Shown one piece after another: positions 1 to 6,806 of a stretch of 6,806 nt of DNA. The notes beneath the pieces are model-generated. The model was not told where the DNA came from, made no database searches, and saw nothing but the letters and a program-made list of their open reading frames with translations. Each line of letters opens with the position of its first letter. Within the stretch, counting starts at the first letter, position 1. Location of the stretch: assembly GCA_027322565.1 (NCBI GenBank), contig DAHVRG010000009.1, forward strand, positions 1 through 6,806. The letters are read 5' to 3'. The DNA is from Georgenia sp. Lineage in GTDB: Bacteria; Actinomycetota; Actinomycetes; Actinomycetales; Actinomycetaceae. Both the position numbers and the translations under genes were made by a program.

Positions 1-573
1 TGCGAGCCCTTCGACGTCTTCGAGCGGCTCGGCCTGCCGCTGCGGACCGGCGACTACGTCCCCCGCCTCGCCCCGTTCGGCACCTTCGCGACCTCCGACG
101 GCTGGTTCGCGCTGTGCGCACCGACCGACGCGTTCGCCCGCGGCGCGCTGCGCGCCATCGGGCGCCCCGAGCTGGCGGAGGACCCCCGGTTCGTCTCCCG
201 CGACGGCCGCGTCGCCAACGCCGACGTGCTCCACGGGCTCATCTCCGCCTGGGCCCGGGACCGGACCACCGAGGAGGCGGTCACCCGCATGGAGCGGGAG
301 GGAGCCCCCGCGGCGCCGGTCCGCTCCACCGCCGAGGCGGTGCGCGACCCTCTCGTGCTCGACCGCGAGGAGGTCGTGCCGCTCACCCACGCCCGGTACG
401 GGCAGACCGAGGAGCTTCTCGGCTCGGGCGTGCCGATCACCTTCTCCCGCAGCACGGTCGCCCTCGACCGGCCGGCACCGGCCCTGGGCGAGCACACCGA
501 CGCCGTCCTGGGCGAGCTGCTCGGCTACGACGCCGACCGGGTCCGGGCGATGCGAGACAGGGGAGTGCTGTGA
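1..573 (+). CDS. Family III CoA-transferase (CaiB/BaiF type), C-terminal part
   Basis: The window opens inside this gene; 190 C-terminal residues are visible, ending at TGA 571-573. The visible part follows the usual C-terminal pattern of family III CoA-transferases (PF02515): a 'GTFATSDGWFALCAPTD' strand-turn, then 'LRAIGRPELAEDPRFVSRDGR' split by ordinary variation, then an amphipathic stretch leading to 'REGAPAAPVRSTAEAVRDP', and finally 'GEHTDAVLGELLGYD' near the end. Family members move CoA from an acyl-CoA donor to a carboxylic acid through an aspartyl-CoA thioester. The catalytic Asp lies in the N-terminal half, outside the window, so activity cannot be confirmed here. The substrate cannot be read from this part. 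Because 2-hydroxyacyl-CoA dehydratase-type genes follow, a role like HadA or FldA (activating a hydroxy acid for those subunits) is a reasonable inference, but carnitine-, formyl- or succinyl-CoA-type specificity is equally open. Confidence 0.9.
   Translation, partial: CEPFDVFERLGLPLRTGDYVPRLAPFGTFATSDGWFALCAPTDAFARGALRAIGRPELAEDPRFVSRDGRVANADVLHGLISAWARDRTTEEAVTRMEREGAPAAPVRSTAEAVRDPLVLDREEVVPLTHARYGQTEELLGSGVPITFSRSTVALDRPAPALGEHTDAVLGELLGYDADRVRAMRDRGVL
559..565 (+). promoter_or_regulatory. Ribosome binding site pointing at GTG 570, not GTG 596
   Basis: The purine run AGGGGAG contains the GGAG core at 562-565 and sits 4 bases before the GTG at 570. There is no comparable purine tract just before the GTG at 596 that opens the transporter frame (bases 581-595 are C-rich). 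Translation of the transporter region therefore seems to be initiated at 570 and to reach the 596 frame either by stop-restart or by a frameshift. Confidence 0.55.
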
Positions 574-599
574 GCGGCACTCGACCTGACCCGCGGTGA
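570..599 (+). other. 9-codon mini-cistron or frameshifted start of the transporter gene
   Basis: GTG 570-572 overlaps the stop of the CoA-transferase gene (GTGA). It opens the frame MSGTRPDPR, which stops at TGA 597-599, itself overlapping the GTG start of the transporter (GTGA again). The frame thus fills the gap exactly and has its own good ribosome binding site. The peptide has a composition typical of an actinobacterial transporter N-terminus (polar, Pro/Arg-rich, no hydrophobic core). There are two readings. It may be a coupling mini-cistron whose termination hands ribosomes to the transporter. Alternatively, the transporter really starts at 570 and one base is missing or slipped near 594-597, where a -1 shift joins it to the 596 frame. 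The sequence alone cannot separate them. Confidence 0.45.
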
Positions 600-1849
600 G
601 AGCGACGCGTCCCGCGCCCTTCGCGGCGTTCCGGTCGGGCAACTTCACCCGCTACTTCACCGGCCAGCTCGTCTCGAACGTCGGTCTGTGGTTCCAGAAC
701 CTCGCCCTCTCGCTCGTCGTCCTCGAGCTCACCGACAGCGCCCGCGCGCTGGCGCTGGTCACCGTCGCCCAGTTCGGCCCGATCACGCTGTTCGGCGGCC
801 TCGCGGGCCGGGTCGTCGACGCCGTCTCGGCCCGCACCGTCCTGCTCGTCACGTGCGTCGCGGCGACCCTGACCTCGGCGGCGCTCGCCCTCGCCGTCTC
901 GCAGGAGACGACCTCCCTGCCGCTGGTCTACGGCCTCATCGCGCTCACCGGCACGGCACACGCCTTCGAGCGGGTGGCCTCCCAGGCGCTCATCTACGAG
1001 CTCGTCGGCCCCGGCCTGCTCCACAACGCCGTCGCCCTGAGCACCGTCTACCTCTCGGCGGCGCGGTCGATCGGACCCGGGCTGGCCGGAGTCGCCTACC
1101 TCGCGCTGGGACCCGCTCCCTGCCTGCTCATCAACGCCGCGAGCTACCTCGCGGCGGTGCTCGCCCTGCTCCTCATCCGGCCCGCGACGCTCCACGCCCG
1201 GCCGCGCGCCGAGTCGGCAAGCCGTTCCGTGCTGGCGGCGCTGCGCGAGGTACTGGGCAACCGGCCGCTCGTCGTCCTCCTCGTCGTCAACGTCGCCGTC
1301 ACCGTCACCGCGATGAACATGAACGTCGTCCTCACCTCGATCGTCTACCTCGGGTTCGGGGGCGACGCCGGAGCGCTCGGTGCCACCCACGCGCTCAACG
1401 CGGTGGGCGCGATCCTCGGCGGGCTGCTCGTCGCGGGCCTGCGCACCTCCCGTGTCAGCTACCTCGTGCCCGGCTGCCTCGCGTTCGCCGTCGCGCTCGC
1501 CGTCAACGCGGCGGCCCCCTCGCTCACGCTCCTGCTCGTCCTCGCCCCGGTGCTCGGGCTCGGGATCGGCACCTACCAGGGGCTCATCTACAGCGCCGCC
1601 CAGGTGTCCGCGGAGCCGCACCAGATCGGGCGGGTGATGTCCCTGCTCACCATGGGCAACGTGGGCATGGCCCCCTTCGGCGCCCTCTACGCGGGCGCGC
1701 TGGTCGACGCCACCTCCGGCCAGACGGCCCTGGCCGTCGGCGCGGCGGCCTGCCTCGGCTGCGCCACCCTCGTGACGTTCACCGTCCTGCGCCCCGCCCG
1801 CGCCCGCCGCCGCGCGGCCGGGGAGACCGACCGGGAAGGAGCCCCATGA
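596..1849 (+). CDS. MFS transporter, MFS_3 / EntS-like
   Basis: This encodes a 417-residue membrane protein of the major facilitator superfamily, a normal length for the MFS_3 (PF05977) group. The N-terminus carries the typical 'FAAFRSGNFTRYFTGQLVS' opening at residues 9-27. About eleven or twelve hydrophobic segments follow, separated in the middle by a charged loop (about residues 196-224). The loop after helix 2 holds a diverged motif A ('GGLAGRVVDAVSARTVLL', 67-84; Arg72 and Asp75 replace the more common ADR arrangement). 'SAARSIGPGLAG' (154-165) matches the conserved helix 5 region of MFS_3 proteins. The C-terminus is Arg-rich and probably cytoplasmic. Many relatives export siderophores or drugs, but the placement between a CoA-transferase and dehydratase subunits suggests movement of the pathway's substrate or product; the direction is unknown. 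GTG 596 is the only start that keeps the whole core, but it lacks its own clear ribosome binding site. The stop overlaps the next gene by ATGA. Confidence 0.9.
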   Translation: MRATRPAPFAAFRSGNFTRYFTGQLVSNVGLWFQNLALSLVVLELTDSARALALVTVAQFGPITLFGGLAGRVVDAVSARTVLLVTCVAATLTSAALALAVSQETTSLPLVYGLIALTGTAHAFERVASQALIYELVGPGLLHNAVALSTVYLSAARSIGPGLAGVAYLALGPAPCLLINAASYLAAVLALLLIRPATLHARPRAESASRSVLAALREVLGNRPLVVLLVVNVAVTVTAMNMNVVLTSIVYLGFGGDAGALGATHALNAVGAILGGLLVAGLRTSRVSYLVPGCLAFAVALAVNAAAPSLTLLLVLAPVLGLGIGTYQGLIYSAAQVSAEPHQIGRVMSLLTMGNVGMAPFGALYAGALVDATSGQTALAVGAAACLGCATLVTFTVLRPARARRRAAGETDREGAP

Positions 1850-2964
1850 CATCCACCGCACACGCGACCGCCGGTGCCGCCCTGGAACGGATCCTCGCGG
1901 CCTACCGGAGCGACGGCCCCCTGGACGTACCGGACGAGCCGGTCATCGGTTACGTCGGGCAGGACGTCCCCGAGGAGATCCTCACCGCGGCGGGCGCCCG
2001 TGCGCTCCGCCTGCGCGGCTCGCCCGACTGGGACACCCGCACCGCCGACGCCTACCTCGGTACGGGGCTGGACCCGGCCGCGCGGGCGCTGCTCGCCGGG
2101 CTCCTCGCCGGGAGGTTCGGCCCGCTCCGGGGGGTGGTGGTCTCCTCCGACTGCGACGCCTCGCAGCGGCTCTTCTACGTCATGCGCGAGATCCACCGCG
2201 TCGAACCCGGGACGAGCCTGCCCCCGGTCCACCTCGCCGACCTGCTCCACCTGCCCCGTCCGAGCACCCTGCGGTACAACATCACCCGCGTCCAGCAGCT
2301 CTGCACGGTGGTCGAGGGGTGGACCGGCGCGCGGGTGACCCCCGCGACCCTGCGCGCGGCGGTCGAGGCGCACAACACCGAGCGTCGCCGGTACCGCGAG
2401 ATCGCCGCGCTGCGCCGGTCACGACCCCCGCGGCTCAGCGGCCAGGAGGCGCTCGCCGTCCACGGCGTCAAGGGCCGGCTGCCGCTCGCCGAGCTCCTCT
2501 CCCTGCTCACCGACCTGCGGGACGGTGCCGGCCTGCCCGTCCGGGCGGGCCGGCGCGTCTTCGTCACCGGGAGCAGCCACGACACGGCCGATGTCTACCG
2601 GGAGCTCGAGGACCGCGGTGCCGTCGTCGTCGGGGAGGACCACGACCACGGTGAGCTGGCCGTCGGTGCCGACGTCACCGAGCCGAGCGTCGAGGCGATC
2701 GCGGAACGCTACCGCGACAACGGGCCCACGCCCCATCACGCCTCGATGCAGGAGCGCGCCGCGTACACCGCCGCCGCGGTCCGTCGGACGGGCGCCGAGC
2801 TGCTGCTCTGCTACGCGCGGGAGAGGGACGACGCACCGACGTGGGACGTCCCCCACCAGGCGGCTGCGGTGGAGGTGCCGACGGCGGTCCTCACCGGACA
2901 GCGGTACGGCACGGTCGACACGGCCGCGCTCGAGCGGGCACTGGAGCAGGAGGCACGGGTATGA
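1846..2964 (+). CDS. 2-hydroxyacyl-CoA dehydratase / benzoyl-CoA reductase family subunit (beta-like), one cluster Cys missing
   Basis: This 372-residue protein has the size and pattern of the HGD-D family (PF06050: HgdB, HadC, FldC, BcrC/BadD). Family members form heterodimers whose subunits each hold an Fe-S cluster through three cysteines and act on CoA thioesters by electron-driven dehydration or ring reduction. Visible landmarks are 'IGYVGQDVPEEILTAAG' (34-50), where classical proteins have Cys but Gly38 stands here; 'VVVSSDCDASQRLF' (97-110) with Cys103 at the second ligand position; an acidic-His stretch 'EDHDHGE' (264-270), where many relatives have a DDLC-type motif; and 'ELLLCYARERDDA' (318-330) with Cys322 at the third position. 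A further Cys153 lies outside the known positions. The start ATG 1846 has AAGGAG at 1836-1841, 4 bases upstream, and overlaps the transporter stop. Membership is clear; the reaction and the presence of a cluster are not. The beta assignment rests on a hand comparison. Confidence 0.85.
   Translation: MTSTAHATAGAALERILAAYRSDGPLDVPDEPVIGYVGQDVPEEILTAAGARALRLRGSPDWDTRTADAYLGTGLDPAARALLAGLLAGRFGPLRGVVVSSDCDASQRLFYVMREIHRVEPGTSLPPVHLADLLHLPRPSTLRYNITRVQQLCTVVEGWTGARVTPATLRAAVEAHNTERRRYREIAALRRSRPPRLSGQEALAVHGVKGRLPLAELLSLLTDLRDGAGLPVRAGRRVFVTGSSHDTADVYRELEDRGAVVVGEDHDHGELAVGADVTEPSVEAIAERYRDNGPTPHHASMQERAAYTAAAVRRTGAELLLCYARERDDAPTWDVPHQAAAVEVPTAVLTGQRYGTVDTAALERALEQEARV
2948..2953 (+). promoter_or_regulatory. 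Ribosome binding site fixing the start at 2961
   Basis: A full AGGAGG lies 7 bases before ATG 2961. It selects this start over the in-frame GTG at 2841, whose extra 40 residues (Gly/Pro/Arg-rich) are just the shadow of the preceding coding frame. Confidence 0.8.
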
Positions 2965-4208
2965 ACGCACGACGGCTGTCCTCGGCCGCGGAGGCCCTGC
3001 GGCACCAGCGCGAGTGGTTCGCCGGCGTCCAGCGGCACGCCGCGGACGGAGGCCTCGTCGCGCTCGTCAACGCCGACACCCCGCACGAGATCCTCCGGGC
3101 CTTCGACATCCCCTACGTCGTCAACCAGTGGTGGTCCTCGATCGCGGCTGCGAAGGGCGGTGCCCAGCGCTACCTCGACCTGGTCGCCGAGCGCGGGTAC
3201 CCCCGGGACTCCGAGCAGTACAACGCCATCGGGCTCGGCGCCGCCTTCGACCCCGCTCCCGAGGACGCGCCCTGGGGTGGGCTGCCCCGGCCCTTCCTCG
3301 TCCTCGGCGAGCTCACCGGCGACACCACGCGCAAGGTGTTCGACGCCTGGGGGGAGCAGCCCGGGGTGACCTTCTACCCGCTGGAGGCCGCGGCCAGCGC
3401 CACGGCGGAGCCGTACTGGTGGGACGACCTGGCCCACGACTGGGAGCGGCTGGTCGGGACCGAGCGCATCGACCTGCTCGTCGCCGAGATGCACGGCCTC
3501 ATCGAGCTCCTCGAGGAACGCACCGGCCGGTCGCTCGACCTCGACCGCCTCGCCGAGATCATGCGGCTGGGCAACGAGCAGGCGGAGTGGAACCGCCGCA
3601 CCCGCGACCTCGTCGCGGCCACCGCCCCCTGCCCGGTCAGCGTCACCGACTCCATCCCGGCGGTCATGCTGCCGCAGTGGCACCGCGGGACGACGTGGGC
3701 GCGTGACGCAGCGCGACGGCTCCACGACGAGGTGGCCGAGCGGGTGGCCGCCGGGGCGGCCCTCGCCCACCCCGAGCGGGCACGGCTCATGTGGGTGGGG
3801 CGCGGGCTGTGGTTTGACCTCGGGTTCTACCGGCACTTCGAGGAGGAGTACGGGGCCGTCTTCGTCTGGTCGATGTACCTGGCGATCGCCGCCGACGGCT
3901 ACGCCCGCTACGGGGACGACCCGCTGCGTGCGCTCGCCTCCCGCTTCGTCGGTTTCAACGAGCACCTCTACGTCCCACCGGCCTCGGCCGAGTGGTACGT
4001 CAACGAGGCCCGCCGCCACGGCGTGGACGGCGTGGTCCACCTCGTCTCCGACGACCCGCGGGGCTCCTGGGCCACCACCCGGGCCCTGCGCGCGGCCGGC
4101 ATCCCGGTCATCGAGGTGCACGCGGACAACGCCGACGCGAGCAGCTACGACGTCACCGCCGTCCGGGGGCGGGTGGCGCGGTGGCTCGAGGACTCGGTGC
4201 TGGGGTAG
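2961..4208 (+). CDS. 2-hydroxyacyl-CoA dehydratase / benzoyl-CoA reductase family subunit (alpha-like), no cluster Cys
   Basis: This 415-residue protein is a second, distinct HGD-D family member (HgdA/HadB/BcrB-like), the presumed partner of the preceding subunit. 'TPHEILRAFDIPYVV' (40-54) matches the CPSE-type region of classical alpha subunits, but the Cys position is Thr40. 'LTGDTTRKVFDAW' (118-130) lines up with the partner's SDCDASQRLF, with Gly120 at the Cys position. 'DGVVHLVSDDPRGSW' (356-370) matches the DGVVxHxNRSCK region, with Pro366 at or near the Cys position. 'RAAGIPVIEVHADNAD' (377-392) is the usual C-terminal strand and the acid-rich end of the family. The only Cys in the whole protein is Cys224, not at a known ligand position. 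The length is normal and the frame is intact, so this is not a decayed gene. Start ATG 2961 overlaps the previous stop (ATGA), implying coupled translation and 1:1 production. The subunit cannot bind a cluster in the known way. It may be a substrate-binding or structural partner, or the pair may do different chemistry. Confidence 0.83.
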   Translation: MNARRLSSAAEALRHQREWFAGVQRHAADGGLVALVNADTPHEILRAFDIPYVVNQWWSSIAAAKGGAQRYLDLVAERGYPRDSEQYNAIGLGAAFDPAPEDAPWGGLPRPFLVLGELTGDTTRKVFDAWGEQPGVTFYPLEAAASATAEPYWWDDLAHDWERLVGTERIDLLVAEMHGLIELLEERTGRSLDLDRLAEIMRLGNEQAEWNRRTRDLVAATAPCPVSVTDSIPAVMLPQWHRGTTWARDAARRLHDEVAERVAAGAALAHPERARLMWVGRGLWFDLGFYRHFEEEYGAVFVWSMYLAIAADGYARYGDDPLRALASRFVGFNEHLYVPPASAEWYVNEARRHGVDGVVHLVSDDPRGSWATTRALRAAGIPVIEVHADNADASSYDVTAVRGRVARWLEDSVLG

Positions 4209-4218
4209 GGGCGAGCCG

Positions 4219-4226
4219 AAGGAGGT
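4219..4226 (+). promoter_or_regulatory. Perfect Shine-Dalgarno sequence without an evident start codon
   Basis: AAGGAGGT lies 11 bases after the stop of the preceding gene. No ATG, GTG or TTG follows at a usable distance; the only candidate is CTG 4234, 7-8 bases downstream. The frame from that CTG runs to about 4410, overlapping the next gene, and is Arg/Gly/Pro-rich like an out-of-frame shadow. It may be a relic of a lost gene start, or chance. Confidence 0.35.
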
Positions 4227-4240
4227 CCACCCACTGACCG

Positions 4241-4257
4241 CGGGCCCGAACGGCCCG
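4241..4257 (+). terminator. GC-only hairpin between operon and hydrolase gene, weak terminator candidate
   Basis: CGGGCC at 4241-4246 pairs with GGCCCG at 4252-4257 around the 5-base loop CGAAC, giving a 6-bp all-G/C stem. No T-tract follows, so it is not a classical intrinsic terminator. It could attenuate or pause transcription, or protect the 3' end of the operon message. Read-through into the hydrolase gene remains possible, since only 86 bases separate the two genes and no clear promoter -10/-35 pair is visible. Confidence 0.3.
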
Positions 4258-4283
4258 GAGAACCTGGAAGAGACGTCACGACG

Positions 4284-4289
4284 AAGGGG
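4284..4289 (+). promoter_or_regulatory. Ribosome binding site for GTG 4295
   Basis: AAGGGG ends 5 bases before GTG 4295. The alternative ATG at 4313 has only AGAAGAAG-type purines before it and would remove the Arg-rich n-region from the signal peptide, so GTG 4295 is preferred. Confidence 0.6.
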
Positions 4290-4294
4290 TTGGC

Positions 4295-6806
4295 GTGCTG
4301 AGAAGAAGACTCATGGGTGGCTTGGCGGCGAGCGTCCTCGCCCTCGGGCTCGTCCCCACGGCGGCGACATCGGCCGCCGCGGCACCGGAGGAGGGGGTCC
4401 ACCGCGGTGACCTGCCCTCCGGGTCGCGGTACGTCGTCGAGGTGCCCGCCGGGTGGAACGGCAAGCTGCTGCTGTGGAACCTCGGGTACATCGGCGGGCC
4501 GCCGGGTGGCGAGGCCACGAGCGGGCCCGGGGGAGCCACCCGGGAGTGGCTGCTGTCGGAGGGGTACGCACTGGCCGCGCTCAAGCCGACGACCAACGGC
4601 TGGGCGGTGGAGGACTTCCTCGAGGAGACACCCGACCTGTACGCGGAGGCGCTCGACGTCCTCGGCAGCGAGCCCGCGGCGACGATCGCCTGGGGCAGCT
4701 CGATGGGCGGGCAGGTCTCGGCGGCGCTGGCCGAGCGCTACCCGGGGACCATCGACGGCGCGCTGCCGATGTGTGCCTCGGTCGCCGGCGGTGTCGGCAT
4801 GCTCAACAGCGGTCTCGACGGCGCCTTCGTCTTCAAGACGCTGCTCGCGCCCGACGACGACGCGATCGAGCTCGTGAACGTCAGCGACGAGCGTGCCCGC
4901 TCCGCTGCGGCGAGCGCCGTCCTGGAGGAGGCGCGGGGGACCCCGGAGGGTCGCGCGCGGATCGCGCTGGCGGCCGCCGTCGCGCAGATCCCCGGCTGGG
5001 TGCAGCAGGGCGCCGAGCGCCCCGCCGCCGACGACCACGAGGCGCAGCTGGACCAGCAGGCCTCGGTCTTCATGTTCAGCGTGTTCTCCCCGCGCGAGCC
5101 GCTGGAGGCGCGCGCCGGCGGGAACTTCTCGTGGAACACCGGCATCGACTACGCCGAGCAGCTGCGCATCTCGGGGAACAGCGCCCAGGTCGAGGCGCTG
5201 TACGCCGCTGCAGGCCTCAGCCTCGAGGAGGACCTCGCGACGCTGGCCGCCACCCCGCGGGTCACCGCCGACGCGGCCGCCGTCCAGTACATGCTGCGCA
5301 ACGCCACCCCGACCGGCCGGATCACCCAGCCGGTGCTCACGCTCCACGAGAGTGGGGACACCGCCCCGGTCATCGGTCAGGCCCAGGCCTACGCCGACGC
5401 GGTCGCCGCGGCGGGCAGGGCCGAGCTCCTCCGGCAGACGTACGTCGACCGGCCCGGCCACTGCAGCTACAGCCCGGCGGAGACCGTCGCCGCGCTGGAC
5501 ACGCTCGCCGAGCGCATCGACACGGGCACCTGGCCCGACACGTCGGCGGACGCCCTGGAGGCCCGTGCCGCAGCCCTCGACGCGGCAAGCAGCGTGGACC
5601 TCGGGGCCGCCGACTTTGCCGACCTCGAGGTGCCCGGCTTCGTGCGCGCCTACTACCCGCGGGTGGACGTGGACCTCGAGGGCACCTTCGCGGACGGCAG
5701 GCGCTACGTCGCACACGTGCCCGCCGACTGGGACGGCACCGCAGCGGTCCTCGGTCGGGTGACCCGGCTCGACCGCCCGGAGCACCGCTGGCTCAGCGAG
5801 CGGGGCGTCGCGATGATCGGGTACGAGTACCACGCCGACTGGGATCTCGGCGGCAGCCGGGACAACGCCACGGTCGCCCACGACACGCTCGCCCGGATCG
5901 CCGGTGCCGTCCCGCACACGACGATCGCGACGGGCTCCTCGCAGGCGGGCCTGACCACCCGGATCATCGCCCAGCAGGCACCGGAGTGGCTCGACGGGGC
6001 CGCGCCGATGTGCGGTGGGGGCGCCGGGGCGATCTCCATGTGGAACGCCAAGCTCGACACCACCTTCGCGCTCAGGACGCTGGTCGACCCCGACTCCCCG
6101 CTGGACATCACCCGGATCGGGGACGTCCGGGCCGAGGGCGAGGCGTTGGACGAGCTGGTGAGCACGGCCGTCTCCTCCCCCCTGGGACAGGCCCGGATCG
6201 CCCTCGCCGCCGCGCTGTCCAAGATCCCGGCCCTCGACGCGGACGGCGAGGAGCTCACCGAGCTCGCCGACCGGGTCGAGGCCTACGCCGAGAGCATGCC
6301 GCTCGCCGTCGGCGCCTCCATCCGCGCCCCCTTCGAGGAGACCGCCGGTGGCTCGTTCTCGTGGAACAACGACGTCGACTACCGCGAGGCGCTGCGGGAC
6401 TCCGGCCGGATCGAGGAGGTGCGGGCCGCCTACGCCGCCGCCGGTGGTGACCTCGAGGCGGACCTCCAGGCGCTCCACACCGCCGAGCGTCTCACCGCGG
6501 ACGAGGACGCCGTCCGCTACGTCGAGTCGCTGGCGACCTTCGACGGCGAGCTCGCGGTGCCGGTCGTCTCCCTGCACACGACCGGCGACCCGGCCGGGCC
6601 GACCGCGGACGACGACGCCTACCGGTCGGTCGTCGAGCACGCCGGCAGGGGGGAGATGCTGCGCAACACGTTCGTCAAGGCGCGCGGGCACTGCACCTTC
6701 ACGACGGCGGAGGTCGTCACGGCGCTCGACCTGCTTCTCGACCGGGTGGAGACGGGGGAGTACGGGCCGGCGGCGCCGGACGCGCTCGACGCACGCGCTG
6801 CCGACC
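4295..6806 (+). CDS. Secreted tandem alpha/beta-hydrolase, 3' end outside window
   Basis: The frame is open from GTG 4295 to the window end (837 residues, no stop). Residues 1-30 form a signal peptide: MLRRRLMGG, a hydrophobic Ala/Leu/Val core, then an SAAAA|PEE cleavage region. The mature part contains two hydrolase domains of the same design, about 33-440 and 450-837. Domain 1 has 'WGSSMGG' with Ser136 as nucleophile, 'SGDTAP' with Asp355, and 'PGHCSY' with His389. Domain 2 has 'TGSSQAG' with Ser549, 'TGDPAG' with Asp765, and 'RGHCTF' with His799. Both contain a GGxFSWNxxxDY signature (275-286 and 685-696) and a PMC strand end (Cys160, Cys573) that may be disulfide-linked to the Cys next to the His (Cys390, Cys800). 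An extracellular esterase or lipase-like function is inferred; polyester, tannin or feruloyl ester, or lipid substrates are all possible, and I do not recognise a named family. A functional link to the operon upstream is unproven. Confidence 0.85.
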   Translation, partial: MLRRRLMGGLAASVLALGLVPTAATSAAAAPEEGVHRGDLPSGSRYVVEVPAGWNGKLLLWNLGYIGGPPGGEATSGPGGATREWLLSEGYALAALKPTTNGWAVEDFLEETPDLYAEALDVLGSEPAATIAWGSSMGGQVSAALAERYPGTIDGALPMCASVAGGVGMLNSGLDGAFVFKTLLAPDDDAIELVNVSDERARSAAASAVLEEARGTPEGRARIALAAAVAQIPGWVQQGAERPAADDHEAQLDQQASVFMFSVFSPREPLEARAGGNFSWNTGIDYAEQLRISGNSAQVEALYAAAGLSLEEDLATLAATPRVTADAAAVQYMLRNATPTGRITQPVLTLHESGDTAPVIGQAQAYADAVAAAGRAELLRQTYVDRPGHCSYSPAETVAALDTLAERIDTGTWPDTSADALEARAAALDAASSVDLGAADFADLEVPGFVRAYYPRVDVDLEGTFADGRRYVAHVPADWDGTAAVLGRVTRLDRPEHRWLSERGVAMIGYEYHADWDLGGSRDNATVAHDTLARIAGAVPHTTIATGSSQAGLTTRIIAQQAPEWLDGAAPMCGGGAGAISMWNAKLDTTFALRTLVDPDSPLDITRIGDVRAEGEALDELVSTAVSSPLGQARIALAAALSKIPALDADGEELTELADRVEAYAESMPLAVGASIRAPFEETAGGSFSWNNDVDYREALRDSGRIEEVRAAYAAAGGDLEADLQALHTAERLTADEDAVRYVESLATFDGELAVPVVSLHTTGDPAGPTADDDAYRSVVEHAGRGEMLRNTFVKARGHCTFTTAEVVTALDLLLDRVETGEYGPAAPDALDARAAD
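4397..6806 (+). repeat. Internal duplication: two homologous hydrolase halves in one gene
   Basis: The halves align along their whole visible length with an offset of about 410-413 residues: Ser136/549, Cys160/573, FSWN 278/688, Asp355/765, His-Cys 389-390/799-800. The linkers after each half also match (TGTWPDTSADALEARAA and TGEYGPAAPDALDARAA). Nucleotide identity is patchy, with only short exact runs such as TTCTCGTGGAAC, so the duplication is old and the halves have diverged. The repeated linker means the protein could end soon after the window or continue into a further copy. Confidence 0.85.

Follow-up and report, generated by a model that had tools for sequence, protein, structure and literature searches.

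We describe a pair of adjoining genes, here called alpha and beta, in a 6,806-nucleotide stretch of DNA from Georgenia sp. (assembly GCA_027322565.1, contig DAHVRG010000009.1, positions 1 to 6,806; this whole stretch is called the window). The genes encode proteins of the HGD-D family that are predicted to form a heterodimer of the kind known from 2-hydroxyacyl-coenzyme A (CoA) dehydratases and class I benzoyl-CoA reductases. In these two proteins just one of the six positions at which cysteines hold the iron-sulfur clusters is still a cysteine. The cysteine-poor pair is real and conserved, and the fold family itself is known. Judging from sequence, we see an even chance that such a pair, without the cysteine sets of both clusters, is an oxygen-tolerant, non-redox acyl-CoA enzyme using the thioesters of the neighbouring CoA-transferase.

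Cluster ligands in both subunits

Both proteins score far above the curated cut-off of the Pfam model HGD-D (PF06050; 150.8 and 129.1 bits, cut-off 28.4), alpha with an E-value of 9.4e-44, and predicted models of the single subunits have the HadBC/BzdNO fold. A previous reading made from the letters of the DNA (the sequence-only reading) had described alpha as an intact HGD-D-like protein with one cysteine, at position 224, coupled to an upstream partner by an ATGA overlap, and we found all of this to be so. According to PMC11971306, the [4Fe-4S] cluster of BzdO is held by Cys95, Cys128 and Cys380, with the same coordination in HadB, and the cluster ligands of BzdN are Cys36, Cys73, Cys100, Cys263, Cys293 and Cys327. 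We mapped the three sites of alpha in joint alignments with HadB, MbdO, BzdO and four relatives from actinobacteria that have the full cysteine set (Table 1). The third site is ambiguous by one residue, as MAFFT sets the cysteine at Pro366 and HMMER sets that of MbdO at Asp365; one joint alignment misplaced the site-2 cysteine of the actinobacterial references, which stands correctly in the alignment used for the tree. Two of the three ligand positions proposed earlier, Gly120 and about Pro366, were thus recovered. The third, Thr40, was not: it lies in another loop, no template has a ligand cysteine there, and site 1 is Glu85. Alpha is without the three-cysteine cluster set of the catalytic subunit of ATP-dependent dehydratases and class I benzoyl-CoA reductases. 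Beta, likewise, does not have the three proximal cluster cysteines expected of the second subunit, two of them being absent, a finding that goes beyond the sequence-only reading.

The loss is shared by the relatives of the pair. We aligned the window alpha with its 120 best-listed relatives out of 896 (121 proteins, the family F1). None of them has a cysteine in residues 82-88 or 362-368 and one has a cysteine in residues 117-123; 13 of the 120 relatives contain no cysteine at all and 50 contain one. All three sites are cysteine in each of the 29 full-cysteine rows of the tree alignment. A second set was built from the best 80 of 107 loci found. Its alpha alignment has 79 rows, the window and 78 loci (L072, with a merged call, and L025, where alpha was not called, were left out), and its beta alignment has 77, the window and 76 loci, those without a whole beta call being left out. 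Among the 79 alphas there is no cysteine in the first or third site stretch, and Cys118, two residues before site 2, occurs in 11. One of the 77 betas has a cysteine somewhere in residues 73-79 and one in 325-331, and not one has two or more of the three proximal ligand cysteines. Two explanations that would have made the loss trivial were considered and rejected: a lone mutant among close homologues with the full set, as no cluster-cysteine set occurs among the 121 aligned F1 proteins, and a shared site filled by cysteines of the partner, as beta has one of the three ligands.

Alpha is under purifying selection. Its dN/dS is 0.22 in two comparisons, with 0.38-0.47 for beta (Nei-Gojobori; dS 0.8-1.2), and 118 of its 415 positions are kept in at least 98% of the 121 rows, Trp, Tyr, Arg, His and Asp being frequent among them. 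Beta evolves much faster, mean identity over 351 pairs being 36.9% as against 59.6% for alpha; the difference is less marked in four canonical pairs (55-60% versus 64-69%).

A clade with its own operon

A maximum-likelihood tree of 71 rows was calculated with the ligand columns dropped; it included a third of set A1 and 17 family-2 rows and left out 5 of the 27 anaerobe-type rows (at least 480 amino acids). A branch with 100/100 support sets F1 and two further families, F2 and F3, apart from the 29 full-cysteine rows, although the tree program flagged as long both branches among the full-cysteine rows and the branch leading to the F1/F2/F3 clade. F2 is a second cysteine-poor family, found in Nocardia carnea and Alphaproteobacteria: among its 120 best-listed members of 305, the stretches of sites 1, 2 and 3 contain a cysteine in 2, 5 and 0 proteins, respectively, and site 3 is Asp in all. 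F3 is a family of sphingomonads. Its 120 best-listed members of 2,333 all have cysteines at sites 1 and 2 and at the equivalents of alpha residues 88, 94 and 122, giving an invariant set C85, C88, C94, C120 and C122, and 118 have Asn at site 3; position 94 is also Cys in 4 of the 29 full-cysteine rows. We infer that site 3 was lost in the common ancestor, all sites in F1, and that a set was rebuilt in F3, a regain of the F3 cysteines being an alternative to be kept in mind. The CxxC/CxC set of F3 may bind a different metal centre. F3 genes lie on Novosphingobium and Croceicoccus plasmids (L127:11923-13224, L128, L129, L131), where the neighbours are CapA, a TRAP transporter and a CocE/NonD hydrolase, in one case with a tannase. 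On one Novosphingobium plasmid a reduced beta of about 292 amino acids (L127:8964-9842), annotated as hypothetical, has no Pfam match and was found by the beta profile only; it adjoins a 695-amino-acid CoA-transferase with two matched stretches.

Gene content of the 80 loci was determined by six-frame profile searches. All 80 contain alpha, and all but one contain beta and a family III CoA-transferase (79 each), the exception being a 3.7-kb contig. In the gene calls of 74 loci beta is the gene immediately before alpha, and in 71 the two overlap. In L033 beta was matched as a fragment only, with the CoA-transferase about 4 kb away, and the beta matches of L026 and L072 are split over two frames. 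The Asp of the CoA-transferase motif MDxIxQALSG, which we take to be catalytic, is kept in 80 of 80 genes from 79 loci. The trio is also present in Nocardia carnea (F2), Rhizobium (F2) and a metagenome-assembled genome of Chloroflexi. A conserved operon with a constant partner, the trio being kept in 79 of 80 loci, and a clade formed by the cysteine-free alphas of the window family were found, points that the sequence-only reading had put forward as a check. Further genes are a CapA-like protein in 68 of the 80 loci and a PaaX-like regulator in 53. One CapA-like protein (L001:3120-4256) scores 89.3 bits with the model for MslH, the lasso peptide C-terminal Trp epimerase (cut-off 700), and it is possible that a CapA-like protein performs an epimerase step ahead of CoA transfer. 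Matches above 490 bits were found in only 3 of 396 Actinomycetota genomes, that of the window counted, with the next match at 97 bits; the operon is hence accessory. Among the matches listed, the closest relative of alpha is 94% identical, and the closest with a genus name are from Homoserinimonas (80%) and from Leifsonia and Salinibacterium (77%).

The hosts of window-type pairs are aerobic, judged by genus names. We searched 40 genomes with the pair, drawn from that of the window and those of 40 of the 80 loci, for the ATP-dependent activator with TIGR00241 (cut-off 125.4). Three of the 40 have a match over the cut-off, compared with 6 of 14 control genomes; two more show matches of about 24 bits, far under it, and none was found in two further genomes and five plasmids (0 of 7). 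Thirty-five of the 40 genomes have two HGD-D proteins and five have more. The three activator-positive genomes are those in which an extra HGD-D pair holds all three alpha cysteines beside an activator gene, so the activator goes with the cluster-bearing pair and not with the window-type pair. Among the others, G020 has an extra pair that is without ligand cysteines, and G022 has a second pair of the window family. The full-cysteine pairs with adjoining activator (L091-L094) are in the genomes of Rhodococcus (L056), Prauserella (L023) and Amycolatopsis (L037), all of them aerobic genera.

Candidate chemistry and its rivals

In BzdO, Tyr97, Tyr298 and Gln274 bind the thioester oxygen and Glu65 is an acid/base residue (PMC11971306). 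The equivalents of the two tyrosines, Tyr87 and Tyr306 of alpha, are each present in all 120 best-listed members of F2 and of F3 as well. Gln274 aligns with Arg281, an arginine in 121 of 121 F1 proteins and in 52 of 55 in a broader set. The position of the active-site glutamate, Glu in 28 of 29 full-cysteine rows, is Gln56 in F1, and Asp39 is invariant in F1 (121 of 121) and in F3. We infer from these residues that binding of the thioester and the enolate remained and that radical chemistry was given up.

The reaction might then proceed as follows. An organic acid, which tannase-like or S15-type hydrolases may have freed from an ester, would be taken up and loaded onto CoA by the CoA-transferase. 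Alpha would use the ancestral channel to hold the acyl-CoA, whose thioester oxygen would be bound by Tyr87 and Tyr306 with help from Arg281, and a carboxylate such as Asp39 would take over from the lost glutamate as general base. The ketyl-radical step would give way to a polar one of the enolate type (elimination, C-C cleavage, decarboxylation or epimerisation), and the CoA of the product would be handed on to the next acid. Beta would now serve chiefly as a scaffold and might bind a metal at Asp76, Asp102 and Asp328. Family III CoA-transferases often feed such partners in a CoA cycle (FldA, CaiB, Frc). The wider reading, to which we give somewhat less than an even chance, is that in a whole HGD-D clade of Actinomycetota, Chloroflexota and Alphaproteobacteria an iron-sulfur radical enzyme, driven by ATP and sensitive to oxygen, became an acyl-CoA enzyme with polar chemistry and no cluster, with carboxylates at or beside the ligand sites, the enolate tyrosines kept and the CoA-transferase cycling CoA in a three-protein machine; the sphingomonads would have arrived at a different outcome, a new CxxC/CxC metal site.

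Several observations weigh against this chemistry. Tyr87 and Tyr306 are kept in 29 of 29 full-cysteine rows as well, and hence might be structural. Arg281 is replaced by Ala in 120 of 120 F3 proteins and by Asn in 104 of the 120 best-listed F2 proteins, and residue 39 is Val in 108 of the latter; that the loop of Asp39 lines the pocket is how we read its sequence. The N-terminal part of BzdO was misaligned in one joint alignment, and Glu65 was mapped by way of HadB and MbdO. The elements corresponding to the CoA channel of BzdO are not significantly richer in invariant residues than the rest of alpha (25 of 69 positions against 93 of 346; p 0.14). No TIGR00241 match was found in the assembly of the window, which counts for little since that genome is 57% complete. 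A substrate could not be deduced from the gene neighbours across the 80 loci, as the transporters differ: an amino-acid-type substrate-binding protein (family 3) is present in 51 and others in fewer. Finally, the old ligand sites are now occupied or flanked by Asp, which, together with the new cysteines of F3, leaves room for a metal centre.

Such a centre is the strongest rival. The carboxylates might hold Mg, Mn, Zn, Fe or an Asp-ligated cluster, making the pair a metal-dependent acyl-CoA enzyme, which we regard as rather unlikely. The conservation of the residues speaks for it: in beta, Asp76 is kept in 77, Asp102 in 76, Asp328 in 77 and Cys103 in 55 of 77 rows, in alpha Asp121 in 121 and Asp365 in 120 of 121, residue 85 is Glu or Asp in all 121, and the invariant cysteines of F3 fall in the same place. 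However, the 55 alphas of the broader set include 14 with Arg or Leu at residue 85, and at position 76 of beta four sphingomonad proteins have Ala or Pro and that of Rhizobium has Glu. Less probable again is a pair without catalytic activity that binds a CoA ester or an organic acid as a sensor, carrier or partner of the CoA-transferase. The fast evolution of beta and its reduction on the Novosphingobium plasmid could be understood in this way, as could the almost constant presence of the CoA-transferase, but the residues kept in alpha are more like those of an active site than of a docking surface.

We consider it very improbable that the pair works as a conventional radical dehydratase, ATP-dependent but unusual in its ligands, whose cysteines the alignments missed and whose activator is supplied from elsewhere. 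Pfam and the source names do call such proteins dehydratases or benzoyl-CoA reductases, one beta ligand position is mostly cysteine and Cys118 lies near site 2 in some alphas; yet alphas with one cysteine or none, as counted above, have too few for an alpha cluster, and in 37 of 40 genomes no activator exceeds the cut-off. Decay of the gene pair, to which lost cofactor ligands and a faster beta might point, is hardly credible and already contradicted by conservation, with intact frames, the dN/dS values given above and an operon kept in many genera. The failed cysteine tests lower the claim of a radical dehydratase and not that of acyl-CoA handling. Non-redox CoA-ester chemistry, first suggested by the sequence-only reading, stays the best reading, an idea strengthened by the clade, the operon and the usual absence of the activator, short of proof.

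Window genes, known systems and significance

The window's MFS, beta and alpha genes are joined by ATGA overlaps, and its two HGD-D genes are the only HGD-D matches in the 2.17-Mb assembly. The MFS cluster of the window recurs in 17 of the 80 loci; clusters named by their representatives are DUF6351-like in 25, S15-type in 17 and P450 in 12. Read by eye, the DUF6351 hydrolase consists of two similar halves, with GSSMGG in the first and GSSQAG in the second, where the nucleophile elbow may be altered.

Table 1. Genes of the window and residues of alpha and beta discussed in the text
Feature	Position	Strand	Support
Family III CoA-transferase, C-terminal part, cut by contig start	1..573	+	Pfam CoA_transf_3, E 1.4e-32
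MFS transporter, ATGA overlap with beta	596..1849	+	Pfam MFS_3, E 8.1e-34
Beta, HGD-D relay-type subunit, 372 amino acids; Cys103 the sole one of three proximal ligand cysteines kept	1846..2964	+	
Beta Asp76 codon, replaces ligand Cys (BzdN Cys73)	2071..2073	+	D in 77/77
Beta Cys103 codon, kept ligand position (BzdN Cys100)	2152..2154	+	C 55, S 20, T 1, N 1 of 77
Beta Asp328 codon, replaces ligand Cys (BzdN Cys327)	2827..2829	+	D in 77/77
ATGA, overlap of beta stop and alpha start	2961..2964	+	sequence
Alpha, HGD-D catalytic-type subunit, 415 amino acids, without cluster cysteines	2961..4208	+	
Alpha Gln56 codon, replaces active-site Glu (HadB Glu55; taken as BzdO Glu65)	3126..3128	+	Q in 121/121
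Alpha site 1, Glu85 codon (HadB Cys84, BzdO Cys95)	3213..3215	+	alignments
Alpha Tyr87 codon, equivalent of BzdO Tyr97 (hydrogen bond to thioester oxygen)	3219..3221	+	Y in 121/121
Alpha site 2, Gly120-Asp121 codons (HadB Cys117, BzdO Cys128)	3318..3323	+	alignments
Alpha Tyr306 codon, equivalent of BzdO Tyr298 (hydrogen bond to thioester oxygen)	3876..3878	+	Y in 120/121
Alpha site 3, Asp365-Pro366 codons (HadB Cys346, BzdO Cys380)	4053..4058	+	alignments
Tannase-like alpha/beta hydrolase (DUF6351), runs off contig	4295..6805	+	Pfam DUF6351, E 3.6e-07

Among the nearest systems already known are the 2-hydroxyisocaproyl-CoA dehydratase HadBC (3o3m) and the phenyllactyl-CoA dehydratase FldBC with the CoA-transferase FldA. 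As in Fld-type operons of CoA-transferase and dehydratase, the window has a family III CoA-transferase beside the pair; unlike HadBC and FldBC, its alpha is without cluster cysteines, its beta has one of three, the active-site Glu is Gln and the activator is usually absent. The class I benzoyl-CoA reductases BzdNO and MbdNO (8s02, 9g87) are the best Foldseek matches, alpha resembling the O and beta the N subunits, and the thioester tyrosines are kept. In contrast to BzdNO, the window pair has neither Cys95, Cys128 and Cys380 of BzdO nor five of the six ligand positions of BzdN, again with the activator usually absent. NCBIfam equivalog models score far below their cut-offs, for alpha BzdO (51.5 of 448.6 bits) and HadB (47.2 of 750), for beta BzdN (35.2 of 453.8), BcrC (30.6 of 421.15) and HadC (12.3 of 700). 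The double-cubane cluster protein (DCCP, 6eno) has, according to PMC11971306, a double cubane per monomer; the window pair scores 33.6 and 62.8 with the NCBIfam model double_cubane (cut-off 350). No description of cysteine-free HGD-D pairs was found among the titles and abstract openings listed by literature searches, a scope outside which most subscription journals fall.

4-Thiouridine monophosphate desulfidase uses a [4Fe-4S] cluster for non-redox chemistry. PMC11971306 lists this enzyme, partly a member of the family, with the benzoyl-CoA reductases, the 2-hydroxyacyl-CoA dehydratases (HAD) and DCCP in the divergence of the superfamily, whose new functions it traces to parts of the clusters being lost step by step, starting with the double-cubane protein and passing by way of BzdNO to HAD. 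The window family, with neither subunit carrying a canonical cluster ligand set, would be the missing last step, and it becomes testable what the HGD-D fold can do without a radical cofactor. Our findings suggest, moreover, that many actinobacterial and alphaproteobacterial genes called 2-hydroxyacyl-CoA dehydratase or benzoyl-CoA reductase are misnamed; if so, they would mislead predictions of anaerobic metabolism.

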